This document shows positions 1 to 14,902 of a stretch of 64,000 bases of DNA, in pieces; within the stretch, counting starts at the first letter, position 1; the number at the start of each line of letters is the position of its first letter. Made by a program: the position numbers and the translations under genes. The notes below the pieces were generated by a model. The model was not told the origin of the DNA and did no database searches. It saw nothing but the letters and a program-made list of their open reading frames with translations. Location of the stretch: positions 1 through 64,000 of the forward strand of contig JANWYG010000003.1 in NCBI GenBank assembly GCA_025057015.1. The letters are read 5' to 3'. This DNA is from Blastocatellia bacterium (lineage in GTDB: Bacteria; Acidobacteriota; Blastocatellia; Chloracidobacteriales; JADJPF01).

Positions 1-252
1 CGCCATAGGGTCGGAAGGAGGCGAGGATGGTTTGACTGAAGGCATACCTCCGACTACCGTCGCCATAGGGTCGGAAGGAGGCGAGGATGGTTTGACTGAA
101 GGCATACCTCCGACTACCGTCGCCATAGGGTCGGAAGGAGGCGAGGATGGTTTGACTGCAGGTATACCTCCGACTACCGTCGCCATAGGGTCGGAAGGAG
201 GCGAGGATGGTTTGACTGAAGGCATACCTCCGACTACCGTCGCCATAGGGTC
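1..252. repeat. 60-bp tandem repeat, four full copies plus a 12-nt start of a fifth
   Basis: Units start at 1, 61, 121 and 181, with a partial unit at 241-252. Units 1, 2 and 4 are identical; unit 3 differs at only a few positions (about 159-163). The period is a multiple of three and lies inside the minus-strand zinc-ribbon gene, where each unit encodes 20 residues. The array continues past the left edge, so the true copy number is unknown. Confidence 0.97.
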
Positions 253-561
253 AGGTTGAGGAGGAGGCAGCTTGTCTTTAAGTTGTTTGATATCTACTCC
301 GCCTACCTGCGTAGCAAATGGGTCAGCTTTACCTTTCGTAGCTTCTGGCTCGCGCTGTACATCAGCAGTTCTCATCTCTGCTACTTGAGTAGCAAAAAGA
401 TCATCAGAAGAAGTGGGCTCTACAAGGGCATGTCCGACACGGGTCTTGTAAGGGTCGTTAGCGGCAAATGTTTGCGGAGGAGGTGTAGGCAAAGATTTGC
501 CGCAAGCTCGGCAAAAGCGAGCTATATCAGTTATCTGGACGCCACAAGCCGGACAGAACAT
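1..561 (-). CDS. Zinc-ribbon protein with repeated D-P-x-A-T-x-V-G motifs (cut by left edge)
   Basis: The reading frame is open from an ATG at 559-561 to the left edge (187 codons, no stop). The N-terminus is a double-CxxC zinc ribbon (C3, C6, C17, C20). A low-complexity region follows in which one short motif recurs: NDPYKTRVG, DDLFATQVA, DPFATQVGG, then DPMATVVGG once in every 20-residue unit of the 60-bp array, separated by Pro/Ser-rich spacers. The C-terminus is missing, so any effector or membrane domain is unseen. Zinc-ribbon plus disordered-linker architecture is common in Acidobacteriota. I infer the regularly spaced threonines could be kinase targets or FHA ligands. The C-terminal domain, and hence the function, is unknown. 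Confidence 0.85.
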   Translation of the reverse strand, partial: MFCPACGVQITDIARFCRACGKSLPTPPPQTFAANDPYKTRVGHALVEPTSSDDLFATQVAEMRTADVQREPEATKGKADPFATQVGGVDIKQLKDKLPPPQPDPMATVVGGMPSVKPSSPPSDPMATVVGGIPAVKPSSPPSDPMATVVGGMPSVKPSSPPSDPMATVVGGMPSVKPSSPPSDPMA

Positions 562-655
562 AGTGTATGCCTACCATCTATTCTGAGCCTTTATATAAGG
601 ATATAACGAAAGTAGCTTATATATCAAGCATAGTCGTTCTATTAAGCGGCACAAA

Positions 656-8983: not shown

Positions 8984-10804
8984 ATGAAAATAAGCGGACT
9001 TTTTTTGCTGCTGTATCTCTTCTTAGGGGTACAACATAAGCCTGAGGTGTATAACGAGCTGAAGAGAAGCTCTGACGAGCTTGCTGGATTGTTGCGGCGC
9101 TTCCCTCAAGATGCAGCAGAAGTACAGCCAATCATTTCGTATATCAAGAGCGAGCTTAAGCTGCGCGGGCTACGTTGGAAATCTTTTGAGCAAGGCGAAG
9201 TCATTGCTAATGACTTGTTTGTCGTCTACCCAGTTCGAGTTGAACTACTTGCTACGTATGAACGTTTGACCGATGCTCTTTTAAATATTGCGGCCTCGAA
9301 CTACATCATTGTGGTAGATGAGGTAGAGGTAGAGGCGGCTGAAATAAAGGCACCATTGGTCTCATTAGCAGCTAAGCTCGTGATGCTTATATATACAATT
9401 CGTCCGCAAACAGTTGAGCAACTTCGAAGGCAAGTGCATAAGGATCCTGCAGCTCAGCTTATTTTTTTGCGTCGGTCGATAGAGACCGTCCTACCGCTTT
9501 ATGAATCAAGGGTAGGTTGTTGGACGGCAATGCGGACTTTGGGCAGGCTTTTTCCTCGCTCTCTTGAAGTAGTTATGACGGAGTTTCGCTATACTGATGC
9601 GCAGGTAGAGCTGAAAGCAGTCTCTCGGGTTGCTTCGGCCGGGCAGCAGTTAGAAGCCGCTATGCGATCGAGTGGAATATTTTCGCAGGTGGAGCTTTTT
9701 CGGGAAGGGCCGTTTTTCAGTATAACTGCCTCTGTGGATGTCTCGAAGGCCTATCAGCAGTGGCTCGAAGGAGTTGACACTTCTGATACGAAGGGCCTAG
9801 CGCGAGATCCTTTCCGGAGTCTATACACTTATGAGCAGCTTACTCAAGGTGCGGCTTATCCACCTCTTGAAGAACGTATAGAGGAATATTTGAAATCTCT
9901 GTCTGTCCAAGCTCAGTCGCGGATAGCACCTTTTCTGGTGGCTGAACTTTCCCTTGCTGGGGTTTTCTACAGCCAGAATGTGCGGGGTGCTATATTTAAG
10001 ACTCCGGATGAAAGAGAGGTCTATGCTGCTGTCGGTGCGTATTGCTACAACGGGCGCTTTGCTGATTTACAGCAAGGCAAGGCTGTTTTTGAAGAAGAGA
10101 CGGTTAGAGATGGTAAGGTTTATAGAACTCAGGTAGTAAAGGCTGTGGAGTCAAGTTGTCTTACTGCTGCAAGGTCGGTACAGCCAAACATAGATCCGAA
10201 TACGGAAGTTCTGCTCAGAGAGCGTCTGTCTCGGATTACATCTACTTTGAGTTACACAAACGTGGATCTTTACAACATACTGCCTGTGCTCAGCGAGCTA
10301 GCGCAATTTAACTATGTTCTTGCTAGCGACGTGTCACGTAATTGTGGGAGCTTCAGTCGTGAACGGGCACCTTTTGTAGAGCAAGTCTTGTCTATCTTGC
10401 GGCAGAATGGGCTAGGTGCTATCGATGTTGCAGGAGTCTTTGTAATATTTGCTGGCAAGCATCCACCTCAGGGACGTGTCGTAGGCTATAGTGTCGATGT
10501 GGATACGGCTCGGTTTGCTAATCTGGAGCAGCCAGTAGAGACTATAGATCTAGCGATAACGCAGCTTCCGCTCGGTAAAGTTCTTGATTCTGTAGGAGCG
10601 AAATATGGAGTTCGTTTCGCTATAGGTGAAAATGAGAGTCTGCAGCTTGTAACTGCTACCATGAAAGATGTAAGGTGGGATGTGGCAATCCTAGCTTGTT
10701 TAAGAGCTTGTGGACTAGCAGCTCTTGTCGAAGCAGACAGAGTAGTTGTCACGACTAGTGAAGAGCTAGCGAGATTACATACTCAAGGCAAAGTTAAGTT
10801 TTAA
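8984..10804 (+). CDS. Fused PilO/PilN/PilP/secretin-N-like protein (possible type IV pilus alignment mimic)
   Basis: 606 residues. The N-terminus is hydrophobic (ISGLFLLLYLFLGV, residues 3-16), a signal or anchor. By reading I recognise in order: a PilO-like domain (about 20-130; FVVYPVRVELLATYERL then YIIVVDEVEVE); a PilN/GspL C-terminal-like domain (about 175-252; ending FSQVELFREGPFFSITASV); a PilP-like segment (about 273-385; ARDPFRSL, then ELSLAGV, RGAIFKTPD, GKAVFEEE); and two STN/secretin-N-like domains (about 420-492 and 518-592). In ordinary pilus systems these are separate proteins encoded as pilMNOPQ. No other pilus gene lies nearby. The gene follows the hybrid kinase by 4 nt. Assignment is by pattern and not confirmed by profile search. 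Confidence 0.6.
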   Translation: MKISGLFLLLYLFLGVQHKPEVYNELKRSSDELAGLLRRFPQDAAEVQPIISYIKSELKLRGLRWKSFEQGEVIANDLFVVYPVRVELLATYERLTDALLNIAASNYIIVVDEVEVEAAEIKAPLVSLAAKLVMLIYTIRPQTVEQLRRQVHKDPAAQLIFLRRSIETVLPLYESRVGCWTAMRTLGRLFPRSLEVVMTEFRYTDAQVELKAVSRVASAGQQLEAAMRSSGIFSQVELFREGPFFSITASVDVSKAYQQWLEGVDTSDTKGLARDPFRSLYTYEQLTQGAAYPPLEERIEEYLKSLSVQAQSRIAPFLVAELSLAGVFYSQNVRGAIFKTPDEREVYAAVGAYCYNGRFADLQQGKAVFEEETVRDGKVYRTQVVKAVESSCLTAARSVQPNIDPNTEVLLRERLSRITSTLSYTNVDLYNILPVLSELAQFNYVLASDVSRNCGSFSRERAPFVEQVLSILRQNGLGAIDVAGVFVIFAGKHPPQGRVVGYSVDVDTARFANLEQPVETIDLAITQLPLGKVLDSVGAKYGVRFAIGENESLQLVTATMKDVRWDVAILACLRACGLAALVEADRVVVTTSEELARLHTQGKVKF

Positions 10805-10832: not shown

Positions 10833-12062
10833 ATGCAAGAAAGAGTGCTTTCCATGATATCTGGTCGCACCGATGTGGGTGTGGTGCGTAGCAATAATGA
10901 GGACAATTTCTTGATAGCTGACTTGGCTCAAGGGATTAGCCTTCCTGAAAATAGTCAATTACTCAAGTCTTTGTCAGAGAATTTGTTGTTACTTGTTGTA
11001 TCTGATGGAATGGGAGGAGCATCGTATGGCGAAGTTGCAAGCGAACTCGCTGTGCTAACTATCAAGGATTCGCTTGTACGGATCGGCCATAATCACCTGC
11101 CCCAGGATCGGTTAGTAGCGGCAGTAGAAGAGGCAAATCAGTTAATCTGGAATGAATCGCAGCGTAATGCTCATATGCGAGGAATGGGTGCTACGGTGAC
11201 TGCTGCGATGATAGAAGGCAATCGAGCATTTGTTGCCGAAGTAGGTGATAGCCGTGCCTATCTTATCCGCGATGGTAGGATTAAACAGATCACTTCAGAT
11301 CAATCACTTGTGTCACATCTAGTTTCTAGGGGAGTAATTAGTGAAGAAGAAGCTGCGACCTACCCTCGGCGTAATGTTGTACTGCAGGCGTTAGGCGTAA
11401 ACGAAGTGATCAAAGTCGCAGTAGATGTCGTGGATTTATGTCAAAATGACCGGCTATTGCTTTGTAGCGATGGTCTTTATAGTCTGTTTTCTGCTGACGA
11501 GCTGCTTTATTATGGTACGATGCAGAATGTTGGCGAAGCTTGTGAGCTGATGATACGCTTGGCTAGAGAGCGCGGAGCGCCTGACAATGTAACTGTAATA
11601 CTGGCAGAGTTTAGAGGCGACGGATTGCAAGTAAGCCCTGGGCGCAGGATGTTGACTGAGTCGCTACACAGATTAGCAGCATACGATCCAGATCTACCTG
11701 TTGAAAAGAGCCATAAACGTACGCAACTACTTGGTGAAACTGGCATAACTTACAGGTACTACTCAGGACCAAACGTCAGGTTAAGAGTAACTGATAATTT
11801 GTCGGCTTTTCCGCAAAGCAGTGATGTAGTATCAGAGCTGAGGAAGCTAAAAGAGAAGCTGGTAGAATGTCGGGTTTGCCTGCAGAATAAGATAGAGACT
11901 GTAGAGCAGGCCACCACTTGGCTTGCATCTCAGGGTATACATTTTACAGATAGAATTACGGTGTTGGAGCTTATAGGTGAGGGTTTAAAACACTTCGAAG
12001 TGCTTTCCAGTGTTGTCGAGCAGCTAAGAGAAAGGTTTGAAAACGGGCTAGATGATTCCTAA
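10833..12062 (+). CDS. PP2C-family Ser/Thr protein phosphatase with C-terminal extension
   Basis: 409 residues. PP2C motifs run in order over about residues 8-262: TDVGVVRSNNEDN, VVSDGMGGASYGEVAS (metal-binding Asp and Gly-Gly), GMGATVTAAM, VGDSRAYLIRDG, LLLCSDGLYSLF and GAPDNVTVILAEF. The last 140 residues are unassigned and may bind a partner. It would reverse phosphorylation by Ser/Thr kinases such as the one at 17079-18032. The ATG at 10833 has a GGGGTGG site just upstream; Met8 is an alternative. Its end overlaps convergently with the 12048-14234 gene by 15 nt. Confidence 0.93.
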   Translation: MQERVLSMISGRTDVGVVRSNNEDNFLIADLAQGISLPENSQLLKSLSENLLLLVVSDGMGGASYGEVASELAVLTIKDSLVRIGHNHLPQDRLVAAVEEANQLIWNESQRNAHMRGMGATVTAAMIEGNRAFVAEVGDSRAYLIRDGRIKQITSDQSLVSHLVSRGVISEEEAATYPRRNVVLQALGVNEVIKVAVDVVDLCQNDRLLLCSDGLYSLFSADELLYYGTMQNVGEACELMIRLARERGAPDNVTVILAEFRGDGLQVSPGRRMLTESLHRLAAYDPDLPVEKSHKRTQLLGETGITYRYYSGPNVRLRVTDNLSAFPQSSDVVSELRKLKEKLVECRVCLQNKIETVEQATTWLASQGIHFTDRITVLELIGEGLKHFEVLSSVVEQLRERFENGLDDS

Positions 12063-14234
12063 CTGCCGATACTTCTGTAGAGTACGGTTTGCAGTGTCTT
12101 CGTCAAAAGGTTGCTCTTGTAGTACGGAACGATTCTTTATATTCTCATAAAGGCTTGCAAAGAGTGTTGCTAGTACGTGTATGCGCTCTCGCAGCTGTTC
12201 TAAGTGTTGTTGAGTGATAGGCCGTTTACGCTCGGCTATTAGCGTGGCACAGTGTAGCAAATCATTGAAGGTACGCTTCATTTCTACTCTGTCAGAATAG
12301 AACACTTTTGGGAGGAACTTTACGAGATAAGCTTGCAGAGGACGCATTAGGGAGTTCAAAAAGAGCCGTAGATCGAGCTCTTGTGCTGTTTGGAGCTTTT
12401 GCTCTAGTTCCTGTTCAGCGAGAGTACACAGTTTCCACACACACCAAGTATGCTCGCGAACTAACATCGAGTCTTGTAAGCGCCTTCGGTAATCTTGATC
12501 GAGGTCGGTACGTTTTAGGTTGGGAATATAGGTTTGAGCAATGTAGACATAGTTTTCTTGCAATACTCTGCCAAGTATGCCTATACTGTCTTCTACCCGC
12601 TTGATATATTCTTCCAAAGGACTTTGCTCGTCTAGATGGCTTAAATGTCCACGTTGGCCAAAAACGCGTTCGGCTTCCATTTCTAGTGTAAACGCTATGC
12701 TGTCAAAACGGCCGGACATCTTACCTTCTGACGGGTAGGTCTTCAGAAACGCTATTAGCTTGCGTATGTTGTCTTCTACTAAGCGGAACCAGTAGTAGGT
12801 CAACTGGTATGCTGTCAGATCATCTTTGTTGGGGCTGATCCGAGCAACGATTCTGATCAATCGGTTCAGTTCAAGCAGGGTTGGAATTACATATCGACGT
12901 TCTATCTTGCTCTCGAAAGAGACTTTTCGGAAGGCTTCCTGTAAGCGTGGATCGAGTACGGTACGCTCGATGTAGTAGCGATATTTGCGCTTTACTTGTG
13001 GATTGAAATAGCTAAGCTCACGTATTACCTTCACGGCGAAATAGATGAAGCTTTTTAAGTTGAGGAAAGGTAATTGTGGCCTTTCTTTATATTTTTCTTG
13101 GCGGATCACTTTTTTAAGGTGTTCGTTTCCAAGTTTTAGTACCTCTAGTCGTTTTGCATAAGATTCATCTAGTCGAGCAGTTGGGTGTGACTCGTAATAA
13201 GTGTCTATGGTTTGTGTAAGCAGTCGTAGGAATTCTATCGCTTCAAGCAAGAAAGATTCTTGTATGTTGCCGCTGCTACGCATGGTAGGTAGACTTTGTG
13301 AGCGATTAAGAAGCAGCATGCTCTGCTCTATCAGGCACGTCAATAACTGTGCTTTTTCCTCTATTACATGTCCTGCAGAGGTGCGCCTGAAATCGGCAAG
13401 TGCTCGATAGACTTCCTTTAGGCTTAGTGAAAGATCTTGTGCCAGTTCTGGCAGCTGGTTTTGGTTTGACTGCAGTTGTAGAAAGCTATCTGCAAGCGAT
13501 ATTATCGATTGCCGCAGCAAAGCTTCTGCTTGTATTCTGTTCGTATCAGCGGAGGAGACTTCGTTTACAAAGTCCAGCATTTCCGTTACCTGCTCGGATT
13601 CTCGTTTCCGCTGGGACTTAAAGTACTCCTTAAGTTGGGGTAGAATGCGATCGTCTATAGCGTCTAGCAAGTCTTCTGCTTGTTTGTTTTGTACGCTAGT
13701 TGCAAGCAACAACCTTAGCTGTTCGAAGTTTGTGAATGCTTTTACTAGGTCTAGCTCTGGTGATTTGACTTTGTTGTATTCATCGACGCTAACAGTGGAG
13801 CTACGGCGAATTCGGTAAGTCTCGCGTAAATAATGCACTTCTGGCTTGACTACAAGTATGCAGCTGATCACTCGGTTTACTATATCAAGCAGAAACAGAC
13901 TCTTTTTGGCAGAGTTTTCCATAGTGGGTTGCCCGAGAGGATCACGTTCATCTAGATAGTCTATGTTTTGCTGAAGTATCAGTATCAGCTCTAGGTCCGT
14001 ATAAAGCTGTGCCAGCGCAAGCTTCTGCTCATCTGTCTTTGTTAAACGGAGAAAGTGTATGAATTCAACTTGCTGCTCATCTAGTGGTAGCCGTTCATCG
14101 GAAAGTATATGCTTTGCGATGATTTGAGTATGATCCGTGAGCAGATCCATCTCGGTCTCTATATGAGCTTCTTCTGTTGGCCCTAAATCAGTCTCGGTGA
14201 GATTCAGCTCACCTTCAACAGGATTGTCTTGCAT
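12048..14234 (-). CDS. Unrecognised 728-residue helical protein
   Basis: No family recognised. The protein begins with an acidic Glu/Asp/Thr-rich tail (about residues 1-35) and is then almost wholly amphipathic, Leu/Gln/Arg-rich and probably alpha-helical, with no signal peptide, membrane segment or nucleotide-binding motif. Helical regions such as LRLLLATSVQNKQAEDLLDA suggest stacked helices or coiled coils, hence a cytosolic scaffold. It starts 8 nt after the stop of the 219-residue gene, so the two form an operon. It converges with the PP2C gene and overlaps it by 15 nt. A role in phospho-signalling is suggested only by that neighbour. Confidence 0.75.
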   Translation of the reverse strand: MQDNPVEGELNLTETDLGPTEEAHIETEMDLLTDHTQIIAKHILSDERLPLDEQQVEFIHFLRLTKTDEQKLALAQLYTDLELILILQQNIDYLDERDPLGQPTMENSAKKSLFLLDIVNRVISCILVVKPEVHYLRETYRIRRSSTVSVDEYNKVKSPELDLVKAFTNFEQLRLLLATSVQNKQAEDLLDAIDDRILPQLKEYFKSQRKRESEQVTEMLDFVNEVSSADTNRIQAEALLRQSIISLADSFLQLQSNQNQLPELAQDLSLSLKEVYRALADFRRTSAGHVIEEKAQLLTCLIEQSMLLLNRSQSLPTMRSSGNIQESFLLEAIEFLRLLTQTIDTYYESHPTARLDESYAKRLEVLKLGNEHLKKVIRQEKYKERPQLPFLNLKSFIYFAVKVIRELSYFNPQVKRKYRYYIERTVLDPRLQEAFRKVSFESKIERRYVIPTLLELNRLIRIVARISPNKDDLTAYQLTYYWFRLVEDNIRKLIAFLKTYPSEGKMSGRFDSIAFTLEMEAERVFGQRGHLSHLDEQSPLEEYIKRVEDSIGILGRVLQENYVYIAQTYIPNLKRTDLDQDYRRRLQDSMLVREHTWCVWKLCTLAEQELEQKLQTAQELDLRLFLNSLMRPLQAYLVKFLPKVFYSDRVEMKRTFNDLLHCATLIAERKRPITQQHLEQLRERIHVLATLFASLYENIKNRSVLQEQPFDEDTANRTLQKYRQLGII

Positions 14235-14242
14235 AAGCCTTT

Positions 14243-14902
14243 TTAGAGATGTTTTAAAGCGGCTTTTAAATAATTTACGCGGTGCTGTAGCAGCCGCAAC
14301 TCGAAGTTAATCTTGTTAGGCTTTTCCTCTAATGTAGAGGAAGATAGTTGATACTCCGCAAGTTTCAGTTCATAGTCTAACCAGGCCTTAAGACCAGCCG
14401 TACCTTGCTGCTCGAACACTGCCTGCCAGGTAAAAGGACGTTCTCCTGGGGGAGGAGTTGGGCCTGGGCCTAGCTCTCTTTCTAATCGTTTGATCAGGCC
14501 TTGAGTAGAGATATCTCCTGGTTTTTTGAGATTGAGGTTTTCTGCAGCGGTATCAAGTAGTAGAGCTTTGACTTGTAGAGTGGTCTGAATGGCCAGCTTT
14601 AGTATACCTAGCTCGACTTTGCGTTGCTGTTCGTCTGCAGTAGTTTGTTGGACTACTGCTTGTTGAAGTTGTATTGCTTGCATCACTTGTTCAGGGCCGT
14701 GTTGGGTGAACAACATTTCCCAATCGCCGTTGAAGCGTTTGCCTACTTCGAGATATGGATCTCCAAAGATGTCTTTGAGCAGCTCGTACGTCAATTGCCT
14801 GCCGCGATTTATGTGCAGTCGCTCTGCGCCCAGAGGAGGGAGTTTGTGATACTCCATGATCTTTTCCGCACGCTTAATCATCTCGGCTTGAGATAAAGGC
14901 AT
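14243..14902 (-). CDS. Unrecognised 219-residue helical protein
   Basis: No family recognised. The sequence is helical and Gln-rich in the middle (about residues 78-98), has a Pro-rich turn (about 145-155) and ends in a long Leu/Glu/Lys helix. There is no signal peptide, membrane segment or metal-binding cluster. The ATG at 14900-14902 has a strong GGAGG site 5 nt upstream. It is first of a two-gene operon with the 728-residue gene. Its 110-nt leader holds a hairpin plus T-run (14927-14962), so transcription may be attenuated before the start codon. Confidence 0.75.
   Translation of the reverse strand: MPLSQAEMIKRAEKIMEYHKLPPLGAERLHINRGRQLTYELLKDIFGDPYLEVGKRFNGDWEMLFTQHGPEQVMQAIQLQQAVVQQTTADEQQRKVELGILKLAIQTTLQVKALLLDTAAENLNLKKPGDISTQGLIKRLERELGPGPTPPPGERPFTWQAVFEQQGTAGLKAWLDYELKLAEYQLSSSTLEEKPNKINFELRLLQHRVNYLKAALKHL

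Follow-up and report, generated by a model that had tools for sequence, protein, structure and literature searches.

A single-chain fusion of PilO-, PilN-, PilP- and PilQ N0-like modules encoded beside a hybrid histidine kinase in uncultured acidobacteria

The alignment subcomplex of type IV pili consists, almost without exception, of several distinct membrane proteins. A 64,000-nucleotide stretch of a Blastocatellia genome (the window; contig JANWYG010000003.1) encodes a protein in which five modules of this machinery are joined in one chain, in the order O-N-P-N0-N0. The architecture supposed by the first-pass annotation is real and, within the reach of our searches and of the open-access literature, undescribed; no description of such a fusion was found in that literature. 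Within the genomes sampled, the fusion is restricted to one family of uncultured acidobacteria. We infer that it is a sensor or scaffold derived from pilus machinery. Our preferred reading, held tentatively and with a little less than even confidence, is that it may be an exapted, pilus-derived periplasmic partner of the hybrid histidine kinase encoded immediately upstream.

The fusion is encoded by a single ORF with an ATG start, separated from the stop of the kinase gene by 4 nt, and both its coordinates and its spacing are as first annotated (Table 1). The 5′ neighbor of the kinase is, by reading, a predicted calcium/proton exchanger, and the 3′ neighbor of the fusion is a PP2C-type phosphatase (Pfam). 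No second pilus gene was found adjoining the fusion. On its contig (C23), the fusion ORF alone matches PilO, and a search of the contig gave no secretin or PilM match, which confirms the earlier remark that no pilus gene is adjacent. Further along the window, two adjoining proteins of 728 and 219 aa (12048-14234 and 14243-14902, both on the minus strand) have no Pfam matches.

Table 1. Positions of the fusion gene, its modules and the adjacent kinase gene in the window. Percentages for hhalign are match probabilities.
Feature	Position (nt)	Residues	Strand	Evidence
Hybrid histidine kinase, 801 aa	6574..8979		+	Pfam: membrane sensor region, PAS, HisKA, HATPase, receiver
Five-domain pilus-derived fusion protein, 606 aa	8984..10804		+	Invariant Cys 179, 354, 392, 454; full-length orthologues P0002, P0003
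Signal peptide-like N-terminus	8984..9034	about 1-17	+	Hydropathy
PilO domain	9053..9400	24-139	+	Pfam PF04350; hhalign 97.7%; Foldseek PilO 2rjz, 3jc8_Oa
PilN / GspL-C-like domain	9428..9766	about 149-261	+	hhalign GspL, PilN; Pfam PilN 7e-4 in P0003; model
PilP domain (ARDPF ... GAIFKTPD ... CYNG)	9791..10126	about 270-381	+	hhalign PilP 98.5%; single-sequence matches to PilP genes
First PilQ N0/STN-like domain	10244..10450	421-489	+	hhalign PilQ 96.2%; weak NCBIfam PilQ match; Myxococcus PilQ 3jc8_Qa
Second PilQ N0/STN domain	10508..10777	509-598	+	hhalign PilQ 98.8%; Neisseria PilQ 4ar0; Pfam STN in P0003

The first-pass annotation had read PilO-like, PilN/GspL-C-like, PilP-like and two secretin-N (STN)-like segments in the chain. 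The three-sequence alignment was split into five segments, and each was compared by hhalign with profiles built from genes of neighboring genomes (PilN, PilO, PilP, lone PilP, PilQ, GspL and GspM); PilM, roadblock and CinA proteins, together with reversed alignments, served as controls. Each segment matched its expected family and the controls did not: both the reversed alignments and the unrelated families scored far lower, near background. Segment 1 matched PilO (E 1.5e-12), with GspM lower at 91%, and segment 3 matched PilP (E 2.5e-15) as well as lone PilP (probability 98.0%). The N0/STN domain of PilQ was matched by segment 4 (E 2.8e-9) and again by segment 5 (E 1.3e-16). The two STN domains thus stand, as copies of N0/STN, and a reading as N0 followed by N1 does not. 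Segment 2 matched GspL (E 4.9e-4) and PilN (E 1.4e-3) and no other family. When alignment columns were shuffled, 0 of 200 shuffles per pair reached the real score for any of the five modules, with z-scores ranging from 5.9 (PilN) to 37.6 (second N0) and a value of 8.2 for GspL.

Searches against curated families and known structures point the same way for several modules. All three orthologues score over the curated cut-off of Pfam PilO (PF04350), with E-values of 8.9e-7, 5e-8 and 2.7e-8. Matches below the cut-off to Pfam PilN (PF05137, E 7e-4) and STN (PF07660, E 4.8e-6) were obtained with orthologue P0003, such matches being confined to one or two orthologues. In the orthologues, the LRANRLG and W motifs of PilQ N0 are retained in the second STN domain. 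A profile of the three orthologues searched against the PDB identified Neisseria PilQ N0 (4ar0, E 2.9e-4) and, weakly, Myxococcus PilQ (3jc8_Qa, E 0.021) and Myxococcus PilO; the PilO match from a single-sequence phmmer search of the PDB (E 0.55) is too weak by itself.

Structure prediction had been proposed as a check of all five segments. An AlphaFold run with the three sequences gave a model that is usable for residues about 25-265 and informative for the first two domains only, the C-terminal half with the PilP and N0 modules being of low confidence. The three best PDB matches of a Foldseek search with the N-terminal half of the model are PilO structures (including 2rjz and 3jc8_Oa), which supports the PilO assignment. 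The PilN segment is modeled as a long helix followed by a strand-strand-helix-strand-strand arrangement, with pLDDT mostly 55-90. This segment is clearly the weakest and least certain of the five, its matches being weak but specific, since it has the lowest profile scores and the model is good only within the residue range given above.

The chain has a single N-terminal hydrophobic stretch, as first noted; it looks like a cleavable signal peptide rather than a membrane anchor, judging from hydropathy. The corresponding N-termini of the orthologues read ...LAFVATA/QTP and ...NLLLA/QKP. Over the whole chain, no second segment is as hydrophobic as the transmembrane segments of canonical PilN and PilO (maximum hydropathy outside the N-terminal stretch, 1.69, vs 1.95-3.76 for those segments). 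With such a signal peptide-like N-terminus, the product is likely to be a soluble protein of the periplasm, and the four cysteines invariant across the orthologues are compatible with a periplasmic protein. Alignment did not reveal the PilM-binding NLL (INLL-type) motif at the N-terminus of the fusion; the motif is present in canonical PilN from this genome. AMIN and N1 domains were not found in the fusion either, and there is no Pfam match to the secretin pore (PF00263), the chain stopping after the second N0.

Full-length intact orthologues are present in two further genera of the same GTDB family as the source genome, G001 (41% identity in the search, 40% aligned) and G002 (38%). Their public records are JAEUQL010000470.1 (a Blastocatellia MAG) and JACQZQ010000108.1 (an Acidobacteria groundwater MAG). 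The search for homologues with the same domain order thus succeeded in three genera of one family, and an assembly artefact was ruled out by three intact ORFs with the same architecture in separately assembled genomes. A sample of 162 genomes from the class and 396 from across the phylum yielded no full-length fusion outside this family, and the other matches listed are to single modules only; those examined lie within ordinary PilO, PilP or PilQ genes, plus a few non-secretin STN-bearing proteins. The fusion is absent from the sister-family genomes G004 and G005, and it was not found in G003, of the same genus as G002, where the contig ends inside the orthologous kinase. No relative was found on plasmids, and a first scan of genome contigs with the single protein sequence gave no match.

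In two of the relatives, a Ser/Thr protein kinase carries a C-terminal STN domain (L139:2051-5256, G002 contig C130, checked with Pfam; L136:1207-4191, G003 contig C643). It adjoins a gene for an ECF-type sigma factor and one for a small, divergent protein; the G003 copy of the latter has two STN domains. In these genomes, kinases are thus paired with STN domains outside any secretin.

The fusion is linked to an orthologous kinase in both relatives that could be assessed; whether homologues always adjoin a hybrid kinase had been posed as a question with the first annotation. With the window kinase as the query, the best of 92 kinase matches in G001 is the kinase adjoining the fusion (57% identity; next 39%), and the best of 152 in G002 is the kinase near the fusion (54%; next 38%). 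The two genes are 2 nt apart in G001 and are separated by a TPR gene and about 580 nt in G002. In the third relative, G003, the orthologous kinase (54%) is truncated by the contig end ahead of its C-terminus, at the flank on which a fusion gene would be expected. The best kinases in G004 and G005 reach only about 40% identity. Gene linkage and orthology indicate that the kinase is a probable functional partner of the fusion, and a link to a two-component system is credible but unproven. The linkage could reflect shared regulation instead of contact.

The source genome also encodes a complete pilMNOPQ operon with normal, separate proteins on contig C14, and only two secretins, both away from the fusion. 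Given this operon, the fusion is an addition and is not needed as an ordinary alignment complex. We rejected a simple read-through fusion of the pilNOPQ operon, since the operon runs M-N-O-P-Q and the modules run O-N-P-N0-N0. In phylogenetic trees, the PilO segment is placed on the side of canonical PilO, not with GspM, and the PilP segment is nearest to lone PilP genes; support for the latter is modest (88/89) and branches are long, so we claim no firm donor. A lone PilP-like gene, located off the pilus operon, occurs in all four family genomes and in one sister-family genome (L034:8319-8801 on contig C3 of the source genome, G000; L035, L036, L037, L039). It lies downstream of thiE- and thiD-like genes in G000 and G001.

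Other envelope machines are encoded in the source genome. A GspL-GspM-GspE-GspF cluster with several pseudopilins (C10, L075:2789-10791, minus strand) lacks, over the stretch read, any secretin or GspC-like gene; clusters of this type are also present in other genomes of the family, with several in G003. An operon on C8 (85500-104500; L143) encodes FlhB, FliR, FliQ, FliP, a FliI-type ATPase, a FliG-like protein and a FliA-type sigma factor, as well as a 520-aa fusion of FHA, FliM and FliN and a 272-aa YscJ protein, apparently a lipoprotein (especially L143 2856-4418 and 9019-9837, both minus strand). YscJ relatives of similar size are found in G002 (C85) and G003 (C576). Neither FliF proper nor a third secretin was found in the source genome. 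A Campylobacter-like flagellar cage was not adopted as an explanation, since the genome has only the YscJ-like protein and no FliF proper.

The reading of the fusion as a periplasmic partner of the kinase draws on the module assignments, on predicted secretion without a transmembrane anchor, on conservation across three genera, on the orthology and linkage of the kinase, on the complete separate pilMNOPQ operon, on the precedents of PilP-N0 binding, PilO signaling and STN-bearing kinases, and on the fact that the kinase orthologue and the fusion are both missing from the sister-family genomes tested. It is weakened by the TPR gene and about 580 nt of G002, which make co-transcription there not obvious, and by the low confidence of the model in its C-terminal half. 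Under this reading, a secreted, soluble chain would be built from the periplasmic modules of PilO, PilN and PilP and two copies of PilQ N0. The O and N modules would pair together, or with membrane PilN/PilO. The P and N0 modules would bind one another in a closed state, or swap partners with PilQ and PilP of an assembling pilus or secretin; in Neisseria, the C-terminal domain of PilP binds PilQ N0 (PMC3441751). The change of state would then be relayed to the periplasmic sensor region of the kinase and on to its receiver domain. Secretion and partnership with the kinase are steps that we infer from sequence features and gene order, while the sensing or imitation of docking between a secretin and the alignment complex is put forward as a hypothesis. 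It is conceivable, although rather doubtful, that the fusion imitates the pilus/secretin docking complex in a single chain, reading the assembly state of a pilus or secretin through exchange of PilP-N0 contacts and reporting to a dedicated hybrid kinase. Should that hold, it would constitute a previously undescribed class of periplasmic sensor, which we regard with the same reserve.

Two alternatives retain the pilus ancestry of the modules and leave the kinase a regulatory role. The fusion might be an exapted structural scaffold of another envelope machine, at the GspL-M-E-F/pseudopilin cluster or the flagellum/injectisome-like locus described above, with the kinase merely regulating that machine. 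The presence of GspL/GspM-like genes without a secretin or GspC in the stretch read, of YscJ, FliG and FliM/N-like parts in a genome with only two secretins, and the precedent of Campylobacterota, where PilMNOPQF parts have been re-used as flagellar scaffolds (PMC11870540), make this credible. It is nevertheless unlikely: the fusion is physically unlinked to either cluster in the source genome, the sister-family genome G005 has GspM-type clusters yet no fusion, and the PilO segment groups with canonical PilO, not GspM. We consider it more unlikely still that the protein serves the ordinary type IV pilus as a subunit with an accessory, regulatory or competing role and would bind PilQ N0 and PilNO directly. 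Although its modules are all of pilus type, the PilP-N0 interaction is established in Neisseria (PMC3441751) and the genome has the complete pilMNOPQ operon, the fusion is on a different contig from that operon, lacks a membrane anchor and the PilM-binding motif of the PilN N-terminus, and is missing from many relatives that have pilus genes.

It was also considered that only the STN domains are real, as in a secreted FecR/TonB-type STN transducer with chance resemblance elsewhere, or that the ORF is misassembled. Non-secretin STN domains do occur in relatives, in the Ser/Thr kinase and the two-STN protein mentioned above. However, the strong and independent PilO and PilP matches, the PilQ N0 motifs of the second STN domain and the shared architecture of the three intact, separately assembled orthologues make this explanation very improbable, and the hhalign and shuffle results contradict the notion that the STN domains alone are genuine.

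A soluble, natural single chain would offer a ready-made structural model for how PilO, PilN, PilP and PilQ N0 fit together. If the link to the kinase is functional, it would reveal a novel means by which a bacterium keeps watch on its envelope machines. The fusion is also a further example of exapted pilus parts, from a lineage distant from Campylobacterota.

Compared with the type IV pilus PilMNOPQ system, the fusion shares N0 of PilQ and the periplasmic parts of PilO, PilN and PilP, all of them recognizable by profiles. However, these are combined in an apparently soluble chain instead of four or five proteins, in the order O-N-P-N0-N0, without transmembrane segments, the PilM partner motif, B/AMIN and N1 domains or the secretin pore, and the gene is outside the pilus operon, a complete normal copy of which is located elsewhere in the genome. 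The GspC-GspD-GspL-GspM components of type II secretion have homologous folds, and the PilN-like segment matches the C-terminal parts of GspL slightly better; in contrast, GspM-type proteins are more distant from the PilO segment than pilus PilO is, and both the PilP segment and the N0 segments are strongly of the pilus PilP/PilQ type. In Pseudomonas aeruginosa, PilO is described as belonging to an outside-in signaling system with the diguanylate cyclase SadC (reviewed in PMC9210963). There, as may be the case for the fusion, a pilus alignment protein passes the state of the envelope to a signaling enzyme, although that system uses an ordinary membrane PilO and a diguanylate cyclase and involves neither a fusion protein nor a histidine kinase. 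The flagellar motor of Campylobacter jejuni (FcpMNO, PflD) likewise re-uses pilus alignment parts outside the pilus, and in PflD a PilP-like loop is joined to a PilQ-N1 domain (PMC11870540). The PilMNO-like parts of that motor are separate proteins of the flagellar cage, whereas the acidobacterial modules form a single, predicted secreted chain encoded beside a histidine kinase.
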